Assembly (NCBI GenBank): GCA_016234555.1
Contig: JACRBJ010000044.1
Coordinates: 86,737-150,736, forward strand
Length of the DNA stretch: 64,000 bases
Direction: 5' to 3'
Source: Chloroflexota bacterium
GTDB lineage: Bacteria; Chloroflexota; Anaerolineae; Anaerolineales; Villigracilaceae
Under the pieces are notes generated by a model. That model made no database searches and was not told the origin of the DNA. It saw nothing but the letters and a program-made list of their open reading frames with translations. How positions within the stretch are numbered: the first letter of the stretch is position 1; each line of letters opens with the position of its first letter. A program made the translations under genes and the position numbers. Of the stretch, positions 10,572 to 55,100 are shown piece by piece.

Positions 10572-10619
10572 GACTATCAGACTAAAAGACTATCAGACCA
10601 AGAGACTAGGAGACTAAAC
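10572..10619. repeat. Degenerate 8-bp tandem array (6 units) abutting the pyrB start codon
   Basis: GACTATCA GACTAAAA GACTATCA GACCAAGA GACTAGGA GACTAAAC then ATG. Confidence 0.85.
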
Positions 10620-12611: not shown

Positions 12612-13793
12612 TTACTTCGAGTGATACTTCCGCCCGCGCCATGTCACCCCCTGACCAGACAGCACCTTCCACGCGGAAGTGAGCATCATGGCGGCGAAGA
12701 CACCCGCGCCCAGCGGAGTGGTCAGCGCGTACCATGCGGAGATGTTCATGCCGCGTGCGGCTTTTGCGCGGAGGTAGAGCAACCAGCCCCACACCAGCAG
12801 GGATTGAACAATGATCGCGCCCGCCAGCCATTCTCCGCCGTTAAACAGCCAGTTGATTCCAAGCAATGTCCAAAGTGGAAGGAACAGAGCCGCTATTAGT
12901 GCCAGCGTGGCTCCGAATGCGCCGAGCAGCAGCATGGCAGGATGTCCGCTGAGACCTAGGTAAATATTCTTTGTCCAACCTTCCCACATGGAAGGCAGGT
13001 CGGTGTACATGCGGGTGCGGATGACCTTCATCCCGTCCGCGACGACGAGACGATGCCCGTTCCATTTGACCTGCTCTGAGATGGCTTTGTCTTCGACGAT
13101 CTGGTCTTTGACCTTTTCATGTCCGCCGATGTCGTTGTAGACTGCACGCCGAATCATGATGAACTGTCCGTTGGCGATGGCGTCGCGGCTGTTGGGATCG
13201 TTGACCTTGCGCGGCGAGAAGCCGACCGAAAGGGCGGTCATCACCAGCGGCATGACCACCTTTTCCCAAAACGAACCGAGGATTTGTTCGTTCATCGTGG
13301 TGAACATGTCAGCCTCGGTTTTGATGGCTTTGGCGTAGCACGCTGAGATGGCGTTCGGCGCGAGGAAGGTATCAGCGTCCACGAAACAGAGCCACTCGCC
13401 ATGCGCAGCAGCTGAGGCTTGAAACAAGGCATGGGGTTTTCCCGCCCAGCCTGCGGGTAGTTCGTTCCCACGGATTGGGAGCAGACGAGAGTCGCGGGAC
13501 GCGATTTCAATTAGTTGAGTCAGAGTTGAATCAGTCGAGCGGTCATCCAAAACAACGACTTCGATGTTCGGATAATCCTGCCCAAGCGCAGACTCAACAC
13601 AGCGGCGAATATTATTTTCTTCGTTGCGGGCGGGGATGCAGATTGAAATCAGCGGGGCGTCGGCTGGTGGAAATGCCGGCTCAACAATCACATCGAGATG
13701 ATATTGATTGTGAATCCAATAAATGATGACGATGGCGGCAAGGAAGAGCAGGGTCGAAATAATAAAGTAAGTCATAATTTTGTCGAAAGTCAA
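12612..13793 (-). CDS. Family 2 glycosyltransferase, hopanoid/carotenoid-associated (HpnB/CrtQ-like)
   Basis: ISICIPARNEENNIRRCVESALGQDYPNIEVVVLDDRSTDST...CFVDADT...VEDKAISEQVK. Confidence 0.75.
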   Translation of the reverse strand: MTFDKIMTYFIISTLLFLAAIVIIYWIHNQYHLDVIVEPAFPPADAPLISICIPARNEENNIRRCVESALGQDYPNIEVVVLDDRSTDSTLTQLIEIASRDSRLLPIRGNELPAGWAGKPHALFQASAAAHGEWLCFVDADTFLAPNAISACYAKAIKTEADMFTTMNEQILGSFWEKVVMPLVMTALSVGFSPRKVNDPNSRDAIANGQFIMIRRAVYNDIGGHEKVKDQIVEDKAISEQVKWNGHRLVVADGMKVIRTRMYTDLPSMWEGWTKNIYLGLSGHPAMLLLGAFGATLALIAALFLPLWTLLGINWLFNGGEWLAGAIIVQSLLVWGWLLYLRAKAARGMNISAWYALTTPLGAGVFAAMMLTSAWKVLSGQGVTWRGRKYHSK

Positions 13794-13826
13794 AGGTCAA
13801 AAGTCAGTCCTTCGACCTTTGACCTT
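13781..13826. repeat. Degenerate 7-bp repeats plus inverted copies between sbcC and the GT2 gene
   Basis: TGTCGAA AGTCAAA GGTCAAA AGTCAGT ... CGACCTT TGACCTT; GTCAAAGGTC/GACCTTTGAC perfect arms. Confidence 0.75.
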
Positions 13827-16412
13827 TTAGATAACTTTCACCGCACTCCCCCGCTCCGTCTTCTCGACCTCGATCCGATTCGGGAAGGCGTCCTTGAGTT
13901 CGTCGAGATGGGTGATGATGAGAATCTTCGCAAAGTCATGTTTGACCATATTGATGGCTTCGATCAGCCGCTGGCGACCCTGCGTGTCCTGTGAGCCGAA
14001 GCCTTCGTCAATGACCAGCGTTTGCAGGCGCGCACCTTTGCGCTGCGAGAGAATTTCGGAGAGCGCAAGGCGGATGGCAAAGTTCACGCGGAAGGCTTCG
14101 CCGCCCGAATACATTTCGTAGTCACGCCAACCAGAACTATCTCGAATGCGAATTTCAAGCGTCTCTTTTAGGTCTTTTCGTTTTTCATCTTTATATTTTT
14201 CTTGCGTAGTAAATTCAATGGACATGTGTCCATCGCTCAGGCGGTCAAGCAGGTCGTTGGCTTTTTGCTCAATTTGCGGCAGTGCCTGTTCGATGAGCAG
14301 GGCGGGCACGCCATCCCTGCCGAAGGCGCGCTCCAAAGTCTTGTGGTGGGCGATCCGCTGGTTGAGTTCCTCGCGCTGACCTCCGTAATCGGTTCTGCGT
14401 GCGCGCAACGTCGCAAGCACCTCCACCTTTTGACGCGCCGCGCCGACCTGATCACGGGTCTGGTTTTCATCTTCGAGCAGGGCGCGCCATTTGTTTTCGG
14501 CTTCGAGGATATTCGGAGCCAGCGTTTCGGATTCAGCCAATTTTTGGGAAGCGACTCGACAAGCCTGATCGCTCTCCCTGACCTCTTCCTCGCGTTGAGC
14601 TTTTTCTGCTTCCAGGCTTTTTATCTCACCCTCAAGGTGGTTGCTGACTTTCCTGGCAATTTTCAAGCTATTGGCTTCTTCCTCTGCCACGCGCCCACTT
14701 GACTCCGCCAGTCTCACCGCCTCATGCGCCGACGGGTCGTAGCCGAGTTTCGCAAGGTCCTTGTCGATTTTTGATAATTGCTTATGCGCATCCGCCGCAA
14801 AAGATTCCTTTTCCAGAGTCTTAGTCACTTCCGCCAGGCGCTTCTTCCCCGTCTTCTCCCATTCCTTTTCAGCGGACTTGAGACTCTCGATCCGCTCAGT
14901 CAACTGCGAAACGGCATTTGAATGTACGAGGAGTTCCTTTTCAACATTTGCCAACTCTGCGACTCGTAACTCGTAACTCGCAACTCGCTTCCCCACCTCT
15001 TCCAGTTCTTTCTTATTGGCGCGGAACTGGTCGCCTTTGTCCTTACCCTGCTTGTTCAAATCTTTCAACGTGGACTTGCGATGCGCCTCGCTCAGTTCCT
15101 GTCCGCAGAGGGGACAGGTTGCTCCTTCGGTCTGTTCGAGCGAATCGATGCGCTTCTTGATCTCGTCCATCTCTTTGCGAAGCGATTCGTTCTCAACCTT
15201 CAACGCCGCGTTTTTTTCGCGTGCTTCATTCCGCTGGCTTTCCAACTCACTGCGTTCCTTGACCTTTTCCTCCGCCTCTTTGAGCGAAGCCTGTGCCGCC
15301 TTAACTTGTTCCTCCAACTCACCCACGACTGATGACTGATTACTGATTACTGTCCATTGATTACCAAGTGCTTCAAACTCCTGCTCCAACTTTGCCTTCT
15401 CCACTTCGATTTCACGAAGCAACGGCTGACGGAGTTCACTCTGCTCGCGGAACTTCTGCGCCATCCCCTCGAAGGCTTCCAACTCCTTGCGTGACTTTTG
15501 CCACGCCTTGTAGTTTGTCTCGATTTCTTCGGCGCGATGAATCAAGTCAGCATAATTGGCGCGTTCGCCTTCTTTTTCAGCAAGGCGAGTCTCGATGTTT
15601 GCCAGCGACGTCCGCGCCCGCTCCAGCGCAGCGGACAGAGTCTCCGCCATTTTGCGCTGTTCCTGAATCAACGCCGCATTCTTGCGGATATTCTCCAGCG
15701 CGGATTCCTGCATGCCGCGAGCAGACGATAATTGCTTGAGCGTGCTTTCCAACTCTGCCAACCGTGACTTGCGGACTTCCTCCTCCGCCAGCTCGGAATC
15801 AATCTCCGCCACGCGCCCGTCGATTTCCTGCACGTCGCTTTCAATTTGTTTGCGTCGCTCGGCAGTGCGTTCCTTGTAGGTATCCCAAATCTCCAAACCG
15901 AGAATCGAACTCAACACCGCCTTGCGCTCACTGGATTTTCTCTGCGTGAACTCATCCGCCTTGCCCTGCAAAAAGAACGAGGCATTGATGAAAGTATCGT
16001 AATCCATCCGCAGGGTTTGCTCGATTCGCGTCTGCGTCTCGCGGGTCGTCTTCTCCGTCAGCGGCTTCCACTCTCCCCGTTCTGCATTCTGCATTCCGCC
16101 TTCTGCATTGATTTGAAACTCCAGCGTCGTACTTTTCCCTCGCGGCAGAGTCCGCTGTACGCGGAAGGTGTTTCCCTCGTAGGCAAAGGTCAGGGACACT
16201 TCCGCCGCTTTCACATCCAAATTCAGGTTGATGACGTCCGTGCTCTTGCCGCGCGCCTCGCCGAACAGCGCCCAGGTCATCGCGTCCAGCAGGGATGATT
16301 TACCCGCGCCGTTCTGTCCCGAAATGCAGGCAAGGTCGAAGGAGTTGAAATCCAGTTCAACGGGGTCGCGATACGAGAGAAAACCTGAAATCCGAAGGTG
16401 AAGGGGAATCAT
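13827..16412 (-). CDS. sbcC: SbcC/Rad50-type exonuclease subunit (SMC-like ATPase)
   Basis: Walker A GQNGAGKSS; zinc hook CPLC; long coiled coils; signature YSGGEAFRVNFAIRLALSE; Walker B LVIDEGFGSQD. Confidence 0.9.
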   Translation of the reverse strand: MIPLHLRISGFLSYRDPVELDFNSFDLACISGQNGAGKSSLLDAMTWALFGEARGKSTDVINLNLDVKAAEVSLTFAYEGNTFRVQRTLPRGKSTTLEFQINAEGGMQNAERGEWKPLTEKTTRETQTRIEQTLRMDYDTFINASFFLQGKADEFTQRKSSERKAVLSSILGLEIWDTYKERTAERRKQIESDVQEIDGRVAEIDSELAEEEVRKSRLAELESTLKQLSSARGMQESALENIRKNAALIQEQRKMAETLSAALERARTSLANIETRLAEKEGERANYADLIHRAEEIETNYKAWQKSRKELEAFEGMAQKFREQSELRQPLLREIEVEKAKLEQEFEALGNQWTVISNQSSVVGELEEQVKAAQASLKEAEEKVKERSELESQRNEAREKNAALKVENESLRKEMDEIKKRIDSLEQTEGATCPLCGQELSEAHRKSTLKDLNKQGKDKGDQFRANKKELEEVGKRVASYELRVAELANVEKELLVHSNAVSQLTERIESLKSAEKEWEKTGKKRLAEVTKTLEKESFAADAHKQLSKIDKDLAKLGYDPSAHEAVRLAESSGRVAEEEANSLKIARKVSNHLEGEIKSLEAEKAQREEEVRESDQACRVASQKLAESETLAPNILEAENKWRALLEDENQTRDQVGAARQKVEVLATLRARRTDYGGQREELNQRIAHHKTLERAFGRDGVPALLIEQALPQIEQKANDLLDRLSDGHMSIEFTTQEKYKDEKRKDLKETLEIRIRDSSGWRDYEMYSGGEAFRVNFAIRLALSEILSQRKGARLQTLVIDEGFGSQDTQGRQRLIEAINMVKHDFAKILIITHLDELKDAFPNRIEVEKTERGSAVKVI
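14954..14988. repeat. In-frame 7-bp array inside sbcC (5 units)
   Basis: ACTCTGC GACTCGT AACTCGT AACTCGC AACTCGC; encodes ASYELRVAE on the minus strand. Confidence 0.8.
15325..15366. repeat. In-frame 7-bp array inside sbcC (6 units)
   Basis: ACGACTG ATGACTG ATTACTG ATTACTG TCCATTG ATTACCA; encodes NQWTVISNQSSVV on the minus strand. Confidence 0.85.
16080..16107. repeat. In-frame 7-bp array inside sbcC (4 units)
   Basis: TTCTGCA TTCTGCA TTCCGCC TTCTGCA; encodes AEGGMQNAE on the minus strand. Confidence 0.85.
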
Positions 16413-16431: not shown

Positions 16432-16466
16432 TTTTGCATTCTGTATTCTTCATTCTTTATTCCGCA
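16432..16466. repeat. Intergenic 7-bp array (5 units), same unit family as 16080-16107
   Basis: TTTTGCA TTCTGTA TTCTTCA TTCTTTA TTCCGCA. Confidence 0.8.
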
Positions 16467-16487
16467 TTCGATTATAATCCACCCAAT

Positions 16488-36323: not shown

Positions 36324-36737
36324 CTATACCTTCGATATTTCTTTTCTCTTGGCATTGAAGTAGGAAAACGTAAACAGTGAAAAAATAATCGCCTGCATGA
36401 CGAATGATGGGATAAGCGCGTCGAGTGGCACAAACCCGACTTTGATTCCCCAAACCTGGGTGACGATTTCTCCGACGACCACAACCAGTGTGATTGGGAG
36501 GATGTCTTTTCTTTCCAAAGGTTTGCGGTCTGCCCAAAGCAGCAGGACGGTCCAACCAAACATCAGCGGAGCGCCCATGCCCATTGCATATCGAAAATCA
36601 GCCATCGGATGAAAATCCACAGGCTGGTTCATGAACTGGAACAGGCTGGGGATTAACATCATCACGCCTGCGACAAAGTCCACAACCGCGCCAACCCAAT
36701 AACTCACTCGTAACCAGCGGACAACATTATTTTTCAT
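36324..36737 (-). CDS. Hypothetical four-TM membrane protein
   Basis: Hydrophobic 137-aa ORF in operon. Confidence 0.5.
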   Translation of the reverse strand: MKNNVVRWLRVSYWVGAVVDFVAGVMMLIPSLFQFMNQPVDFHPMADFRYAMGMGAPLMFGWTVLLLWADRKPLERKDILPITLVVVVGEIVTQVWGIKVGFVPLDALIPSFVMQAIIFSLFTFSYFNAKRKEISKV

Positions 36738-37209
36738 TATCAGTCCTCACATGATGAATGACAACCATGGCTTCGCCATTTGCCAATGCTTCCAATTGTT
36801 CGCGGCTGGGACGTTTTGGCAAGCCATGAGCCTTTTCCATAATCATCCCGATCAAGCGGGGGTGACGTTCGAGACGCACTTCCAAAAAATCAGCAAACCT
36901 CGAAGAGTCGGTGACTATCTCCGCCGTGCCTTGAATATGCTTCGCGCCTACACGCAGCTCCACCTGTGAATTCGACTGGATGTTGCGTACCCAATCCGCA
37001 TTAAGTCCGCGCGCCGCGCCGAGGTAATAATCCTCGCCGATCTTTTCATATTGAAGCGGTGTCACCCGCTTCTTCCCAGACTTTCTGCCCGTCGTCGTCA
37101 ACAGGACGATGAACCCGCCGATGATGGGTCCCAGTCCAAGGGCATAAAGTACGCGATGGATTTTTTGAATATTCTTCATCTTCGACCAGTCGAATGTGTT
37201 TGGTTTCAT
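36727..37209 (-). CDS. Nitroreductase/deazaflavin-dependent oxidoreductase (DDN-like)
   Basis: LLTTTGRKSGKKRVTPLQYEKIGEDYYLGAARGLNADWVRNIQSN. Confidence 0.8.
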   Translation of the reverse strand: MKPNTFDWSKMKNIQKIHRVLYALGLGPIIGGFIVLLTTTGRKSGKKRVTPLQYEKIGEDYYLGAARGLNADWVRNIQSNSQVELRVGAKHIQGTAEIVTDSSRFADFLEVRLERHPRLIGMIMEKAHGLPKRPSREQLEALANGEAMVVIHHVRTDNEK

Positions 37210-37230
37210 GGTGTATTTCTTTCTCTGTTT

Positions 37231-37258
37231 AGTCGAAAGTTAAAGGTCGAAGGTCACG
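37231..37258. repeat. Heptamer array, left flank of the four-helix-bundle gene
   Basis: AGTCGAA AGTTAAA GGTCGAA GGTCACG. Confidence 0.8.
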
Positions 37259-37261
37259 GAG

Positions 37262-37672
37262 CTAGGCTTCGTAGTCAGCCGCGTTGTCTGAGGCCCGTCG
37301 CGGGCGGGGGTTGGTTTCGAGATATTTGATAAACCTGGCGGTTTGGCGAGAGCAGGTTTCTGCCATTGCAAACGTCTCTTTGAATTGTTCTTCTGTGATG
37401 TAGTTTTGGTCAAGGGCAATGTAAAGTTGCGCCCTGACTTCACCAGCCGACGCGCGTGCCATGCCAAGGAAATTAATGAACTGCACGTCCGTACGGCTCT
37501 CGAATCCCTCGGCGATATTGCTCATGACAGAAATGCTCGCTCGACGGATTTGGTCACGAAGCCCAAAGTCACGATTGAACCCCGCCTGATTGGTATGAGC
37601 ATAAACCGAGTTGGTCAATTGCCTCGCCGTCTTCCATGCTTCAATCTCTTCAAACCGAGTGATGGCTGTCAT
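37262..37672 (-). CDS. Four-helix-bundle protein (23S rRNA intervening-sequence/S23 family)
   Basis: FEEIEAWKTARQLTNSVY...DFGLRDQIRRASISVMSNIAEGFE...FLGMARASAGEVRAQL. Confidence 0.88.
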   Translation of the reverse strand: MTAITRFEEIEAWKTARQLTNSVYAHTNQAGFNRDFGLRDQIRRASISVMSNIAEGFESRTDVQFINFLGMARASAGEVRAQLYIALDQNYITEEQFKETFAMAETCSRQTARFIKYLETNPRPRRASDNAADYEA

Positions 37673-37689
37673 TTTCCATTTCCTTTTTC

Positions 37690-37738
37690 TGACCTTTGAC
37701 TTTCAACTTTAGACCTTCGACTTTAGACCTTCGATCTT
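37690..37738. repeat. Heptamer array (7 units), right flank, inverted relative to 37231-37258
   Basis: TGACCTT TGACTTT CAACTTT AGACCTT CGACTTT AGACCTT CGATCTT. Confidence 0.85.
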
Positions 37739-39185
37739 ACTTAAACACCACATCCGCAGGCATTCCGATCTTCAACTTCCCATCGGGATCATTGACCTTC
37801 AACTTGATGGCATAGACCGTGCTGGAGCGACCTTCAACGGTTTGGACGTTGCGCGGTGTGAATTCTGCTTTGTTGGCAATCTGGATGACCTCGGCAGTGA
37901 AGGTCAGGTCGGGGAAGGAGTCAACCGTCAGTTCGGCTTGCTGACCGATTGAGACTTTGCCATAGCGGTTTTCAGGGACGTAGACCGTGATGGTCAGGTT
38001 ATTCAACTCGCCGAGGACAAAAGCCGTCGCGCCAGGCTGGACAAACTCACCCACTTCCACGTTGCGAGTCAGGACGACGCCATGCATCGGCGAAGGGATG
38101 GTCAGCTTGGCGATTTGGGTATCGATCAGGTCGAGATTCGCCTGAGCCTGTCCTACCGCCATTTGCGCCTGATCCGCCGCCGCCTGCGCCTGCGATAGCG
38201 CGCCTTCCGCCACTGTCACCGCAGTGGACTGTTCGCCCGTCTGGAATTTCCGCAGGTAATCAAGCGCCGCGTAATAACGTTCCTGCGCCACCGAGACTTC
38301 GGCGCGAAGCAAAAGCACATCGTCCGCCGCCTGTGTGTCGAGAAGTTCGTCGTAGGCTTTCTGGGCATCGTCCAGTTCCTTTTCCGCCGCATCGAAAAGA
38401 TTCTCGCCCGCATCTGTCAGGTTCTCGTCGCCACGGCAGCCATAAACGCGATTGGTCAACCGCTTGTTGTCCACCCGATAACCTTCGTTGGTCCCGCAGT
38501 GGGTGCTGTTGTACCTGCCGACGGGCGCGTTGGCATCGGCGGAATTTTGGGTGAGGTTGTTCACGTCCTTCGCCAGTGAATAGGCGAGACGCGCATTGAG
38601 AAGCCGCTTCTCGGCTTTGAGGAATTCCGACTTCTCAACCGATGTATTGACATTCTCCAAATTGGCGCGGGCTTCTTCCAAAGCTTTCAAAGCAATGTCA
38701 ACTTGGTCCTGCGCCGCCTGAAGTTGCTCTGTGCGGGAGAAATACCAGTCGGGCTGCTCGAAGCGATTCGGATCCTTCGAGAACCAATCCTGAGTACGGG
38801 TTTTCTTGTCCTGCGCGAGCGCGGCTTCGAGGGCGATTTGATATTGGCTCTGCGCGGTGGACAGCGCGTTCTGGGCAGTCTTCGCCCCCGCTTTGGCTGA
38901 CTCCAAACTGGCGGCGGCTACCGCCCGTTGAGCGGCGAGCAGGCTTGGGTCGAGTTGCAGTAGCGGGTCGTTCACTGAAATGGCTTGACCTTCATCTGCA
39001 AGGACTTCGGTCACCTTGCCAGCCATTTCGGGCGCAACGTTCACCTGCGTTGCCTCGATGGTGCCAGAGGCGGTCAGCGCGCCTTTTTTGTTCGAGAGGA
39101 CTTGCGTAATGATGAAGTAGATGCTGACGGCAACGAGCAGCAGGACGACAACGATTGCCTGAATTGGGGGACGTTTGTGGTTCAT
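37737..39185 (-). CDS. HlyD-family efflux periplasmic adaptor (YbhG-like)
   Basis: GTIEATQVNVAPEMAGKVTEVLADEGQAISVNDPLLQLD; LTIPSPMHGVVLTRNVEVGEFVQPG. Confidence 0.82.
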   Translation of the reverse strand: MNHKRPPIQAIVVVLLLVAVSIYFIITQVLSNKKGALTASGTIEATQVNVAPEMAGKVTEVLADEGQAISVNDPLLQLDPSLLAAQRAVAAASLESAKAGAKTAQNALSTAQSQYQIALEAALAQDKKTRTQDWFSKDPNRFEQPDWYFSRTEQLQAAQDQVDIALKALEEARANLENVNTSVEKSEFLKAEKRLLNARLAYSLAKDVNNLTQNSADANAPVGRYNSTHCGTNEGYRVDNKRLTNRVYGCRGDENLTDAGENLFDAAEKELDDAQKAYDELLDTQAADDVLLLRAEVSVAQERYYAALDYLRKFQTGEQSTAVTVAEGALSQAQAAADQAQMAVGQAQANLDLIDTQIAKLTIPSPMHGVVLTRNVEVGEFVQPGATAFVLGELNNLTITVYVPENRYGKVSIGQQAELTVDSFPDLTFTAEVIQIANKAEFTPRNVQTVEGRSSTVYAIKLKVNDPDGKLKIGMPADVVFK

Positions 39186-50076: not shown

Positions 50077-50961
50077 ATGTCAACAGTTACACCCGTCTCA
50101 ACCAGCACGTCACAGCGCAAAAAGGTGACGACGCTGACGTTCCGTCAAAAGAAGGAACGCGGCGAACCGATCACCATGCTCACAGCCTATGACTATCCCA
50201 CCGCAGTGGCGATAGACAAGGCTGGAGTTGATTCCATCCTCGTCGGCGATTCGCTGGCGATGGTGGTTCTGGGCTACGAAAACACCCTGTCCGTCACCAT
50301 GGACGAGATGCTGCACCACGCGCGGGCGGTTGCTCGCGGCGCGAAGAGCGCCCTGCTCGTCGGCGACATGCCGTTCATGTCGTATCAGGTCACAGCGGAG
50401 GAGGCGCTGCGCAACGCGGGTCGCTTCCTGCAAGAGGCTGGCATGGACGCGGTCAAACTCGAAGGCGGACGAGATCGGGCGGAAGCAGTCCGCAGAATTA
50501 CAGGCGCGGGAATCCCCGTCATGGGACATCTCGGACTGACGCCGCAATCCATCCACCAGCTTGGCGGATTCCGCGCCCAGGGCAAAACCGCTTCGGCGGC
50601 GAAGATTCTGCTTGAAGATGCGAAAATCCTCGAAGAAGCGGGGGCGTTCAGCCTCGTGCTTGAGTCTGTCCCTGCGCGGCTGGCTGAGTTTATCTCGAAG
50701 GAGATTTCCATCCCGACGATTGGCATCGGCGCGGGCGCGGGCTGTGACGGTCAGGTGCTGGTTACCCATGACCTGCTCGGTCTCTTCGACCGCTTCACGC
50801 CGAAGTTCGTCAGGAAGTACGCAAACTTCCACGCGGAGATGAACAAGGCGTTCACGCAATACATCGACGACGTGGAGACCAAACGCTTCCCCGCCGCTGA
50901 ACACACGGTTGAAATGACCGATGATGAGTGGCATGAGTTTTTGAAAATTACCAATCCCTAA
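50077..50961 (+). CDS. panB: 3-methyl-2-oxobutanoate hydroxymethyltransferase
   Basis: ITMLTAYDYPTAVAIDKAGVDSILVGDSLAMVVLGYENTLSVTMDEMLHHARAVARG; GHLGLTPQSIHQLGGFRAQGK. Confidence 0.93.
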   Translation: MSTVTPVSTSTSQRKKVTTLTFRQKKERGEPITMLTAYDYPTAVAIDKAGVDSILVGDSLAMVVLGYENTLSVTMDEMLHHARAVARGAKSALLVGDMPFMSYQVTAEEALRNAGRFLQEAGMDAVKLEGGRDRAEAVRRITGAGIPVMGHLGLTPQSIHQLGGFRAQGKTASAAKILLEDAKILEEAGAFSLVLESVPARLAEFISKEISIPTIGIGAGAGCDGQVLVTHDLLGLFDRFTPKFVRKYANFHAEMNKAFTQYIDDVETKRFPAAEHTVEMTDDEWHEFLKITNP

Positions 50962-50992
50962 TTACCAATTACAGAAATTAGTAGTTGGTAAT
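50946..50992. repeat. Heptamer array AATTACC with inverted copy, overlapping the panB stop
   Basis: AATTACC AATCCCT AATTACC AATTACA ... GGTAATT. Confidence 0.75.
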
Positions 50993-52142: not shown

Positions 52143-55100
52143 ATGACCCAACGCAAATATACGAACCGTCGCTATCTCGATGCCCTCGAAAAGAAAGTCC
52201 TTGTCTTCGATGGCGCGATGGGAACAAGCCTGCAAACCCAGAACCTGACCGCTGAGCATTTCGGCGGCGAACAATACAACGGATGTAACGACTACCTCGT
52301 CATCTCGTATCCACAAGCTGTGGAAAAAGTCCATCGCTCCTTCCTCGATGTCGGCGTGGACGTACTCGAAACAGACACCTTCCGCTCCAACCGCTTGACG
52401 ATGGCGGAATATAAATTGCAGGATCGCATCATCGAGATCAATGTTGCGGCGGCAAAACTTGCGCGTCGTTTAGCAGATGAATACGGCGTAGGGGCGGACG
52501 GCCGTCCGCCCCAACCAAGATTCGTCGCTGGTTCCATTGGACCTTCGGGCAAACTCCCGTCCACCAACGACCCCGAACTTTCGAATGTCAAATACGACGA
52601 GTTGATCGACATCTTCCGCGAGCAGGCCGTCGGCCTGATTCAAGGCGGCGTCGATCTGCTTCTGATCGAAACCTCGCAGGACATTCTCGAAGTCAAAGCC
52701 GCCATCACGGGCATTCACAAAGCCTTCGACGAGACCCAGCAATATTTGCCGATCCAGGCTCAGGTCACATTGGATACGACAGGTCGTATGCTGCTCGGCA
52801 CCGATATCAACGCATCCCTTACCATCCTCGAAGGCATGGGAATCGACGTTATCGGCCTCAATTGTTCCACTGGTCCCGAGCACATGCGCGAGCCCATTCG
52901 CTTCCTCGGCGAAAATTCCACGCTGCCCGTTTCATGTATCCCCAATGCGGGACTCCCGCTCAACGTCGATGGGCAGGCCGTCTATCCGCTCGAACCTGAA
53001 CCGTTCGCAAATGACATGGCTGAGTTTGTGACGAAGCACAACATCTCGGTCGTTGGCGGATGTTGTGGCACAACTCCCGCTCACCTCAAGCTGCTTGTTG
53101 AAAAGCTGAATCATCATCCTGCTCCGAGTCGTCCATCGTCCACCGTCGGTCGTCTATCGTCCGCCATGTCGGCGATTGCCATGCGACAGGAACCCGCCCC
53201 AACTTTGCTTGGCGAAAGATGCAATGCGCAGGGATCGCGCAAGTTCAAACGCCTGCTGCTTGAAGAAGATTACGATGGCATCCTCGACGTTGCGCGTGAC
53301 CAGGTCGCAGGCGGCGCGCACGCCCTCGACATCTCGGTTGCTGTCACCGAACGCGCGGACGAAGGCGAGCAGATGCGCAAAGTCATCAAAAAACTGCAAA
53401 TGGGTGTGGATGTTCCCCTTGTCATTGACACCACCGAGCCTGATGTGTTGGAGATCGCTTTGCAGACCGCGCCTGGACGTTGTCTCATAAACTCCACGCA
53501 TCTTGAATCTGGTCGGGCAAAAGCCGACAAGATTTTTGGACTTGCAAAGAAATACAACGCCGCTGTGATTTGTCTCACCATCGATGAGAACGGCATGGCA
53601 AAGACTGCACAGGCAAAATATGAAGTGGCAAAACGTATTTACGACATCGCCGTCAATGACCACGGACTCAAGCCCGAAGATTTGGTCTTCGATGACCTGA
53701 CTTTTACCCTCGCCACTGGCGACGCGGAATTCGTTGACTCAGCCAAGGAGACCATCGAAGGCATTCGTCTCATCAAACAGAATCTGCCTGGCGTGATGAC
53801 TTCGCTTGGCGTGAGCAATTTGTCGTTCGGTCTCGCACCGCAAGCACGCCCGCCTTTAAATTCCGTCATGCTCTATTACTGCGTACAGGCAGGCTTGGAC
53901 ATGGCAATCGTCAACGCCGCGCATGTCCAACCTTATGCTGAAATAGACACCGAAGAACGTAACTTATGTGAAGACCTGATCTTCAATCGTCGTGAAGATG
54001 CTTTGCAGCGCTTCATTCAACACTTTGAGACAGTCACGGTTTCAACTGAATCCACGGTCGTTGACCCCACTGAAGGCATGACTCCCGAACAAAGGTTGCA
54101 CTGGAAGATTTTGCATCGTCACAAAGAAGGCGTTGAAGCGGATATTGACGAGATCATCAATCGCGAGACTCCTAACACCAAACATGAAGTAGCAGTCCAC
54201 ACTCTCAACACCGTCCTGCTCCCTGCCATGAAGGAAGTCGGTGACAAGTTCGGGGCGGGCGAGTTGATCCTGCCGTTCGTGCTGCAATCGGCTGAGACGA
54301 TGAAAAAGACCGTCTCTCACCTTGAAAATTATCTCGAAAAAGTGGAAGGCGTCACCAAAGGTACGGTTGTCATCGCCACCGTCTACGGCGACGTGCATGA
54401 CATCGGCAAGAACCTTGTCAAGACCATTCTCGCCAACAACGGCTACACCGTTATTGACCTCGGCAAGCAGGTCCCAGCCGAGACGATCATTACCAAAGCT
54501 GTGGAAGCGAACGCCACTGCGATTGGTTTGTCGGCTTTGCTGGTATCCACCTCCAAGCAAATGCCACTCATCGTCAACGAAATGCAGCGCCGCGGACATA
54601 AGATTCCCATCCTCATCGGCGGAGCAGCCATCAACCGCCGCTTCGGTCGCCGCATCCTCTTCACGGAAGGTGGCGAAGCCTACGAGCCAGGCGTTTTCTA
54701 TTGCAAGGACGCCTTCGAAGGTCTTGACACAATGGACTCGTTGATCGACCCCAAGCGCAAGCCTGCCATGCTCGAACAACTCCACAAAGACGCGGACATG
54801 GAAATGGGACGCGCAGCAAAAGAAGCTGAACGTTCAACGCCAAACGTTCAACGTTCAAATATCGTGCCAGCACCGATTCAGCTTCCTGCCAGACTCGGTC
54901 AGCGCATTGTCAAAGATATGCCGCTCGAAATGGTGCTCAAGCATCTCAACATCAACGAGTTGTATCGCCTCTCCTGGGGCGCCAAGAATACACATGGCAA
55001 GGAATGGGAAAAACTCAAGGCGGAGTTTGATGCCCGCCTTGCGAAGATGACCAAGGAAGCGCTCAAAGACGGCTGGCTCAAACCCCAGGCTGTTTACGGC

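Follow-up and report, generated by a model that had tools for sequence, protein, structure and literature searches.

An IVS-like four-helix-bundle gene cassette with inverted heptamer-array ends, probably once mobile, in an exporter operon

Proteins of the S23/IVP family are annotated so far only as "four helix bundle protein". In the window, which means the whole analysed stretch of DNA of 64,000 nucleotides, a gene of this family (FHB) is located in a protein-coding operon between two complementary arrays of short tandem repeats. This raises the question whether the gene and its arrays form one element and to which class such an element belongs. A sequence-only reading had proposed an IVS-like mobile cassette or a repeat-associated protein, with the gene sitting on top of an RNA stem. 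The cassette part is well supported by comparison, namely by the complementary flanks of PF05635 genes and by empty and occupied sites; the RNA-stem part was not supported.

The gene, its arrays and its neighbours

The following features are relevant for the locus:

37262..37672, minus strand: four-helix-bundle (FHB; S23/IVP) gene, 136 aa (PF05635, E 1.9e-32; TIGR02436, E 5.4e-31; four helices in the AF2 model; Foldseek)
37690..37736, minus strand: 5' arm (gene sense), about seven tandem RGTCNAA-type heptamers, reaching up to the hlyD stop codon
37231..37256, plus strand: 3' arm (gene sense), about 3.5 RGTCNAA-type heptamers, inverted relative to the 5' arm
37737..39185, minus strand: HlyD-like membrane fusion protein, upstream host gene and marker of the insertion site (PF16576, PF13437)
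36727..37209, minus strand: F420H2-dependent quinone reductase, DDN-like, downstream host gene (PF04075, E 4.5e-17)
13781..13831, no strand assigned: geneless RGTCNAA hairpin, candidate non-autonomous derivative (motif search of the window)

The profile search identified the ORF as PF05635 23S_rRNA_IVP and TIGR02436 four helix bundle protein, in agreement with the proposed 23S-IVS-type protein. The left array reads AGTCGAAAGTTAAAGGTCGAAGGTCA and the right array TGACCTTTGACTTTCAACTTTAGACCTTCGACTTTAGACCTTCGATC; an inverted-repeat search recovered 25 nt complementary at 84 %, with 433 nt between them, and the coordinates and complementarity given earlier were right. The right array indeed adjoins the hlyD stop codon (37737-37739), while the 3' arm ends 21 nt ahead of the ddn start codon, and the domain matches on both sides bear out the location between hlyD and a DDN-like gene. 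The cassette sits immediately after the hlyD stop codon, within an exporter operon, and the FHB is probably read from the operon transcript.

Three tandem RGTCNAA units (up to two mismatches) occurred in none of five first-order Markov simulations of the window, and genome-wide the unit (up to one mismatch) has 148 matches compared with 5 for the reversed control pattern; therefore the arrays are not due to chance. Most of the other copies in the genome are geneless, either hairpins or single arms, and the geneless hairpins are mostly intergenic with the plus arm ahead of the minus arm. The window arrays are members of this dispersed hairpin family. The genome assembly comprises 101 contigs with an estimated contamination of 7.7 %; the cross-phylum result given below is independent of this.

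Arrays enter also coding sequence. An SbcC/SMC-like gene of 861 aa (13827-16412, minus strand) carries three heptamer arrays in frame, each of a different unit; they encode the peptide runs NAEGGMQNAER, NQWTVISNQSSVV and RVASYELRVAEL. More short arrays of the window, mostly single arms, are located at 10572-10618, 16436-16469, 50946-50990, 53129-53162 and 54829-54858, with the units GACTANNA, ATTCTGC, AATTACC, TCGTCCA and AACGTTC.

AF2 models the FHB protein with confidence as a four-helix bundle (pLDDT 94.6). The best Foldseek match is 2GSC, followed by 2RLD and then by Avd of diversity-generating retroelements (4DWL; TM 0.69 by query and 0.85 by target, 13 % identity). For a Xanthomonas S23-family protein a pentamer is reported in work cited by PMC4990558. 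In the profile search the ORF matched PF05635 only and no Y1 domain (PF01797), no known catalytic motif was recognised in the FHB, and the window genome (G000) gave no RVT_1 match.

Inverted arrays around PF05635 genes

A motif search found no RGTCNAA arrays at the other seven PF05635 matches of the genome. As a refutation of the pattern this was dropped, because each locus uses a different unit. When the flanks were read, each of these loci displayed a short repeat of its own, and the complete FHB genes have the same unit on both flanks; examples are GAATGCA (carA-carB), GTTCCATGTGCCAGG, TTAGGAATTAGG, GTTTGATN and the 9-mer TGAGGCTTA. Two fragment-like matches at contig ends (L005 and L008) retain one clear array each.

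For each locus the downstream flank was reverse-complemented and compared with the upstream one, and the best local match served as the score. Among the Anaerolineales 57 of 74 FHB loci exceeded the 99th percentile of control placements, in comparison to 4 % when flanks of different loci were paired. The same threshold was passed by 65 of 75 further loci, nearly all of them from more than 20 other phyla. Complementary flanks were present at 91 % of 149 PF05635 genes versus 7 % of the neighbouring genes used as control (P=5e-40). Of seven low-scoring loci that were read individually, most have an array on at least one side, and L154 has none. Arrays are the rule for other FHB genes, a point that the sequence-only reading had proposed to check, with a small minority lacking a clear arm pair; neither FHBs free of arrays nor a gene always present without repeats was found as a rule.

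The repeat unit varies between loci and is common to both arms within a locus. For 136 loci the best array period was 7 or 14 in 92, 8 or 16 in 27, and 9 in 5 cases. The 5' arm is G-rich in the coding sense at 86 % of the loci, and the upstream gene is co-directional with the FHB at 125 of 140 (70/75 and 55/65). The cassette pattern reaches well beyond the window and is general to PF05635 genes.

In the plasmid and phage collections searched only distant plasmid relatives of the FHB and no phage match were found. Nostoc sp. PCC 7120 carries the same FHB protein on the plasmids pCC7120gamma (L330) and pCC7120alpha (L331), beside ISL3-type transposase sequences; at the former an inverted 85-nt copy of the right end lies beyond the transposase on its far side. 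These cassettes were possibly captured by an IS. As proof of autonomous movement the duplicates are confounded, since the shared segment runs from the FHB start codon to past the right arm and stands beside ISL3-type transposases.

Sites, arms and array load

A look at orthologous operons, also proposed in the sequence-only reading, yielded both empty and occupied sites at hlyD-ddn and carA-carB. Behind the hlyD ortholog an FHB is present in the window genome, G006, G007, G011 and G016, broken by a frameshift in at least the last, and missing elsewhere. In G012 hlyD and ddn meet directly at a short junction, an empty site; G031 and G027 have a geneless hairpin, and G015, G001 and G005 arrays of other units. 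The carA-carB cassette is present in the window genome, G018 and G011; G004 and G025 have an empty junction, G029 has a geneless 9-mer hairpin there and G010 an unrelated palindrome. Comparison thus shows that orthologous sites can be empty, with gain and loss sometimes indistinguishable.

At the carA-carB locus (L006/L238) the 5' array encodes the C-terminal residues and the stop codon of carA. A REP-like palindromic element (GGTGGTCGAGTAG...GTATCGAGACCAC), different from the cassette, recurs at identical junctions in several genomes, behind hlyD in L110, L111, L114, L115 and L120 and before carB in L243 and L241. Downstream of hlyD in G005 (L118) there are two long adjacent FHB-less arrays of GAATGGT and AACCTGC type with more than 15 units in total.

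Arms were compared between FHB pairs without detectable homology in the flanks beyond the cassette. Their similarity rises with protein similarity, the mean score being 10.9-11.6 below 0.5, 14.2 at 0.5-0.6, 18.1 at 0.6-0.7 and 21.3 at 0.7-0.85, and within Anaerolineales 0 of 2000 permutations reached the observed association. Between L082 and L067/L060, which occupy different sites, DNA homology spans arm, gene and arm and ends there; between L006 and L107 it spans the 5' arm and the gene. At orthologous loci an arm resembles its partner in the same genome more closely than it does the arms of the ortholog (60 versus 25 pairs, P=1.3e-5), and the hlyD cassette of G006 has changed GTC to GTT in both arms. 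Because relatives at unrelated sites keep the unit and the homologous segment includes the arms, the arms arrive with the gene. The comparison shows that they belong to the element, move together with the gene and change jointly within a locus. The coupling between unit and lineage is not in itself proof of recognition, since descent of whole cassettes from a common ancestor can produce it too. Among the loci compared no transposition event could be traced to the exact nucleotide, nor was a target-site duplication seen. Purifying selection on the FHB family is strong (median dN/dS of 0.066 over 29 pairs, many of which are close to saturation at synonymous sites).

A rather unlikely alternative is that the heptamer arrays form a repeat family of their own, arising from slippage or another element, and that FHB genes merely land, harmlessly, in hairpin loops or intergenic arrays. 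Geneless hairpins are common. RGTCNAA hairpins, with 15 exact matches of the unit, are still found in G008, a genome with no detected FHB, and they also persist where the FHBs have units of another type. The arrays of other units at FHB-less hlyD sites fit this explanation as well. Against it speak the arms that are kept by relatives at unrelated sites within the homologous segment, and the genome load of arrays. This load was determined for 24 Anaerolineales genomes, on samples of 55-100 kb per genome and with FHB neighbourhoods excluded. The density of period-7/8 arrays correlates with FHB gene number (rho 0.78; P=6e-6, an optimistic value because the stretches were chosen by contig number, not randomly, and the genomes are related), but control lags do not (-0.02). 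The correlation is 0.67 within the genus (n=15) and 0.94 in other genera (n=9), and weaker with Y1 transposases (0.43) and reverse transcriptases (0.36). As a correlation, the load of 7/8-mer arrays follows FHB number; a shared cause may underlie both. Y1/RAYT as a hidden cause of the arrays was rejected, for Y1 matches reach their highest number (13) in G008, where arrays are few and no FHB was detected, and reverse transcriptase as a needed partner was rejected too, since several FHB-rich genomes, the window genome included, lack an RVT_1 match.

Improbable is the explanation that the arms form an RNA stem at which RNase III, or an enzyme like it, cuts the FHB segment out of the operon mRNA, the arms being kept for that purpose. 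The architecture is that of the RNase III-excised 23S IVS (PMC4990558), the arms are complementary and inverted, and the cassettes lie in sense within operons. Yet the arm mismatches on the transcribed strand comprise 193 of G-U type versus 210 of A-C type (P=0.43). The wobble test for RNA-stem selection is negative, the gene on top of an RNA stem finds no backing in it, and no Rfam family matched in 37100-37900. As there is no G-U excess, arm complementarity may be a property of the DNA. A coincidence of two ordinary intergenic repeats is hardly credible: RGTCNAA repeats are common in the genus, but the same layout with other units surrounds PF05635 genes across phyla and the own-genome FHB copies, each with its own unit, which already contradicts it.

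Proposed mechanism and known systems

From the sequence comparisons the best reading is an IVS-like mobile cassette that ends in heptamer arrays, has geneless derivatives and resembles RAYT/REPIN. The locus is probably a self-contained, once-mobile cassette of the IVS class (array, FHB gene, inverted array), whose FHB is proposed to recognise its own arms and to spread arrays and cassettes. The FHB, with the pentameric ring of its family and an Avd-like fold, would recognise the repeat of its own inverted arms and help to copy or insert arrays and cassettes at other sites. Geneless hairpins and single arrays would be left as non-autonomous derivatives, as for RAYT transposases with their REPINs. 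Cutting and copying would fall to host enzymes or unknown chemistry, because the FHB has no recognisable catalytic site. This lack and the RGTCNAA hairpins of G008 count against a simple form of the mechanism. That the FHB acts on the arms is inferred from the unit-lineage coupling, the array load and the Avd-like fold; if so, this would be a mobile element without recognisable recombinase.

The FHB gene, known mainly from rRNA insertions, looks like the core of a widespread mobile element. In a broader and more tentative version, for which the balance is not quite even, S23/IVP proteins may serve specifically as the machinery of a near-universal but so far unrecognised class of bacterial mobile elements with inverted lineage-specific heptamer-array ends, would generate the heptamer arrays of genomes, and would have in the 23S IVS one special landing site. 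The origin and purpose of the 23S IVS, the function of S23/IVP proteins and the source of bacterial heptamer arrays are joined by the comparative findings in one testable system, and the place to look is the protein's own flanking repeat. No general description of an FHB and heptamer-array cassette was found in the open-licence literature, where earlier work may be missed, and the class is apparently undescribed so far.

The cyanobacterial STRR are a family of heptamer repeats. Another one are the TAACTGA repeats of Beggiatoaceae, whose description does not mention IVS or S23 proteins (PMC4679880). Both resemble the window arrays in that they are short, intergenic, built of degenerate heptamers and numerous in a genome, but the TAACTGA repeats form direct sets, mostly upstream of start codons. 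Avd (4DWL, 8UB7) has the four-helix fold in common with the FHB. However, at the low identity given above, with no reverse transcriptase in the genome and no DGR parts seen, the FHB is not a member. RAYT/REPIN systems likewise have a gene between inverted short-repeat copies, and geneless inverted pairs are dispersed in the window genome; but the window element lacks the Y1 transposase domain and is not a member, and it has tandem heptamers, with FHB units varying by locus, instead of the single palindromes of REP.

The 23S rRNA IVS of Coxiella and Leptospira carry an S23p ORF, and such an IVS has the S23 protein and complementary ends and is excised by RNase III (PMC4990558). The Coxiella IVS combines S23p and a terminal stem with three tandem heptamers, GACAGAT, ahead of the S23p start codon (PMC4990558). 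The window ORF belongs to the same S23/IVP family and is enclosed by complementary ends able to form a stem. Unlike the 23S IVS, it has longer heptamer arms and geneless relatives dispersed in the genome, and because it is sited between the protein genes hlyD and ddn and not within a 23S rRNA gene, it is IVS-like and not a 23S IVS. The cassette probably belongs with the 23S rRNA IVS in one class, which is found between protein genes in very many phyla.
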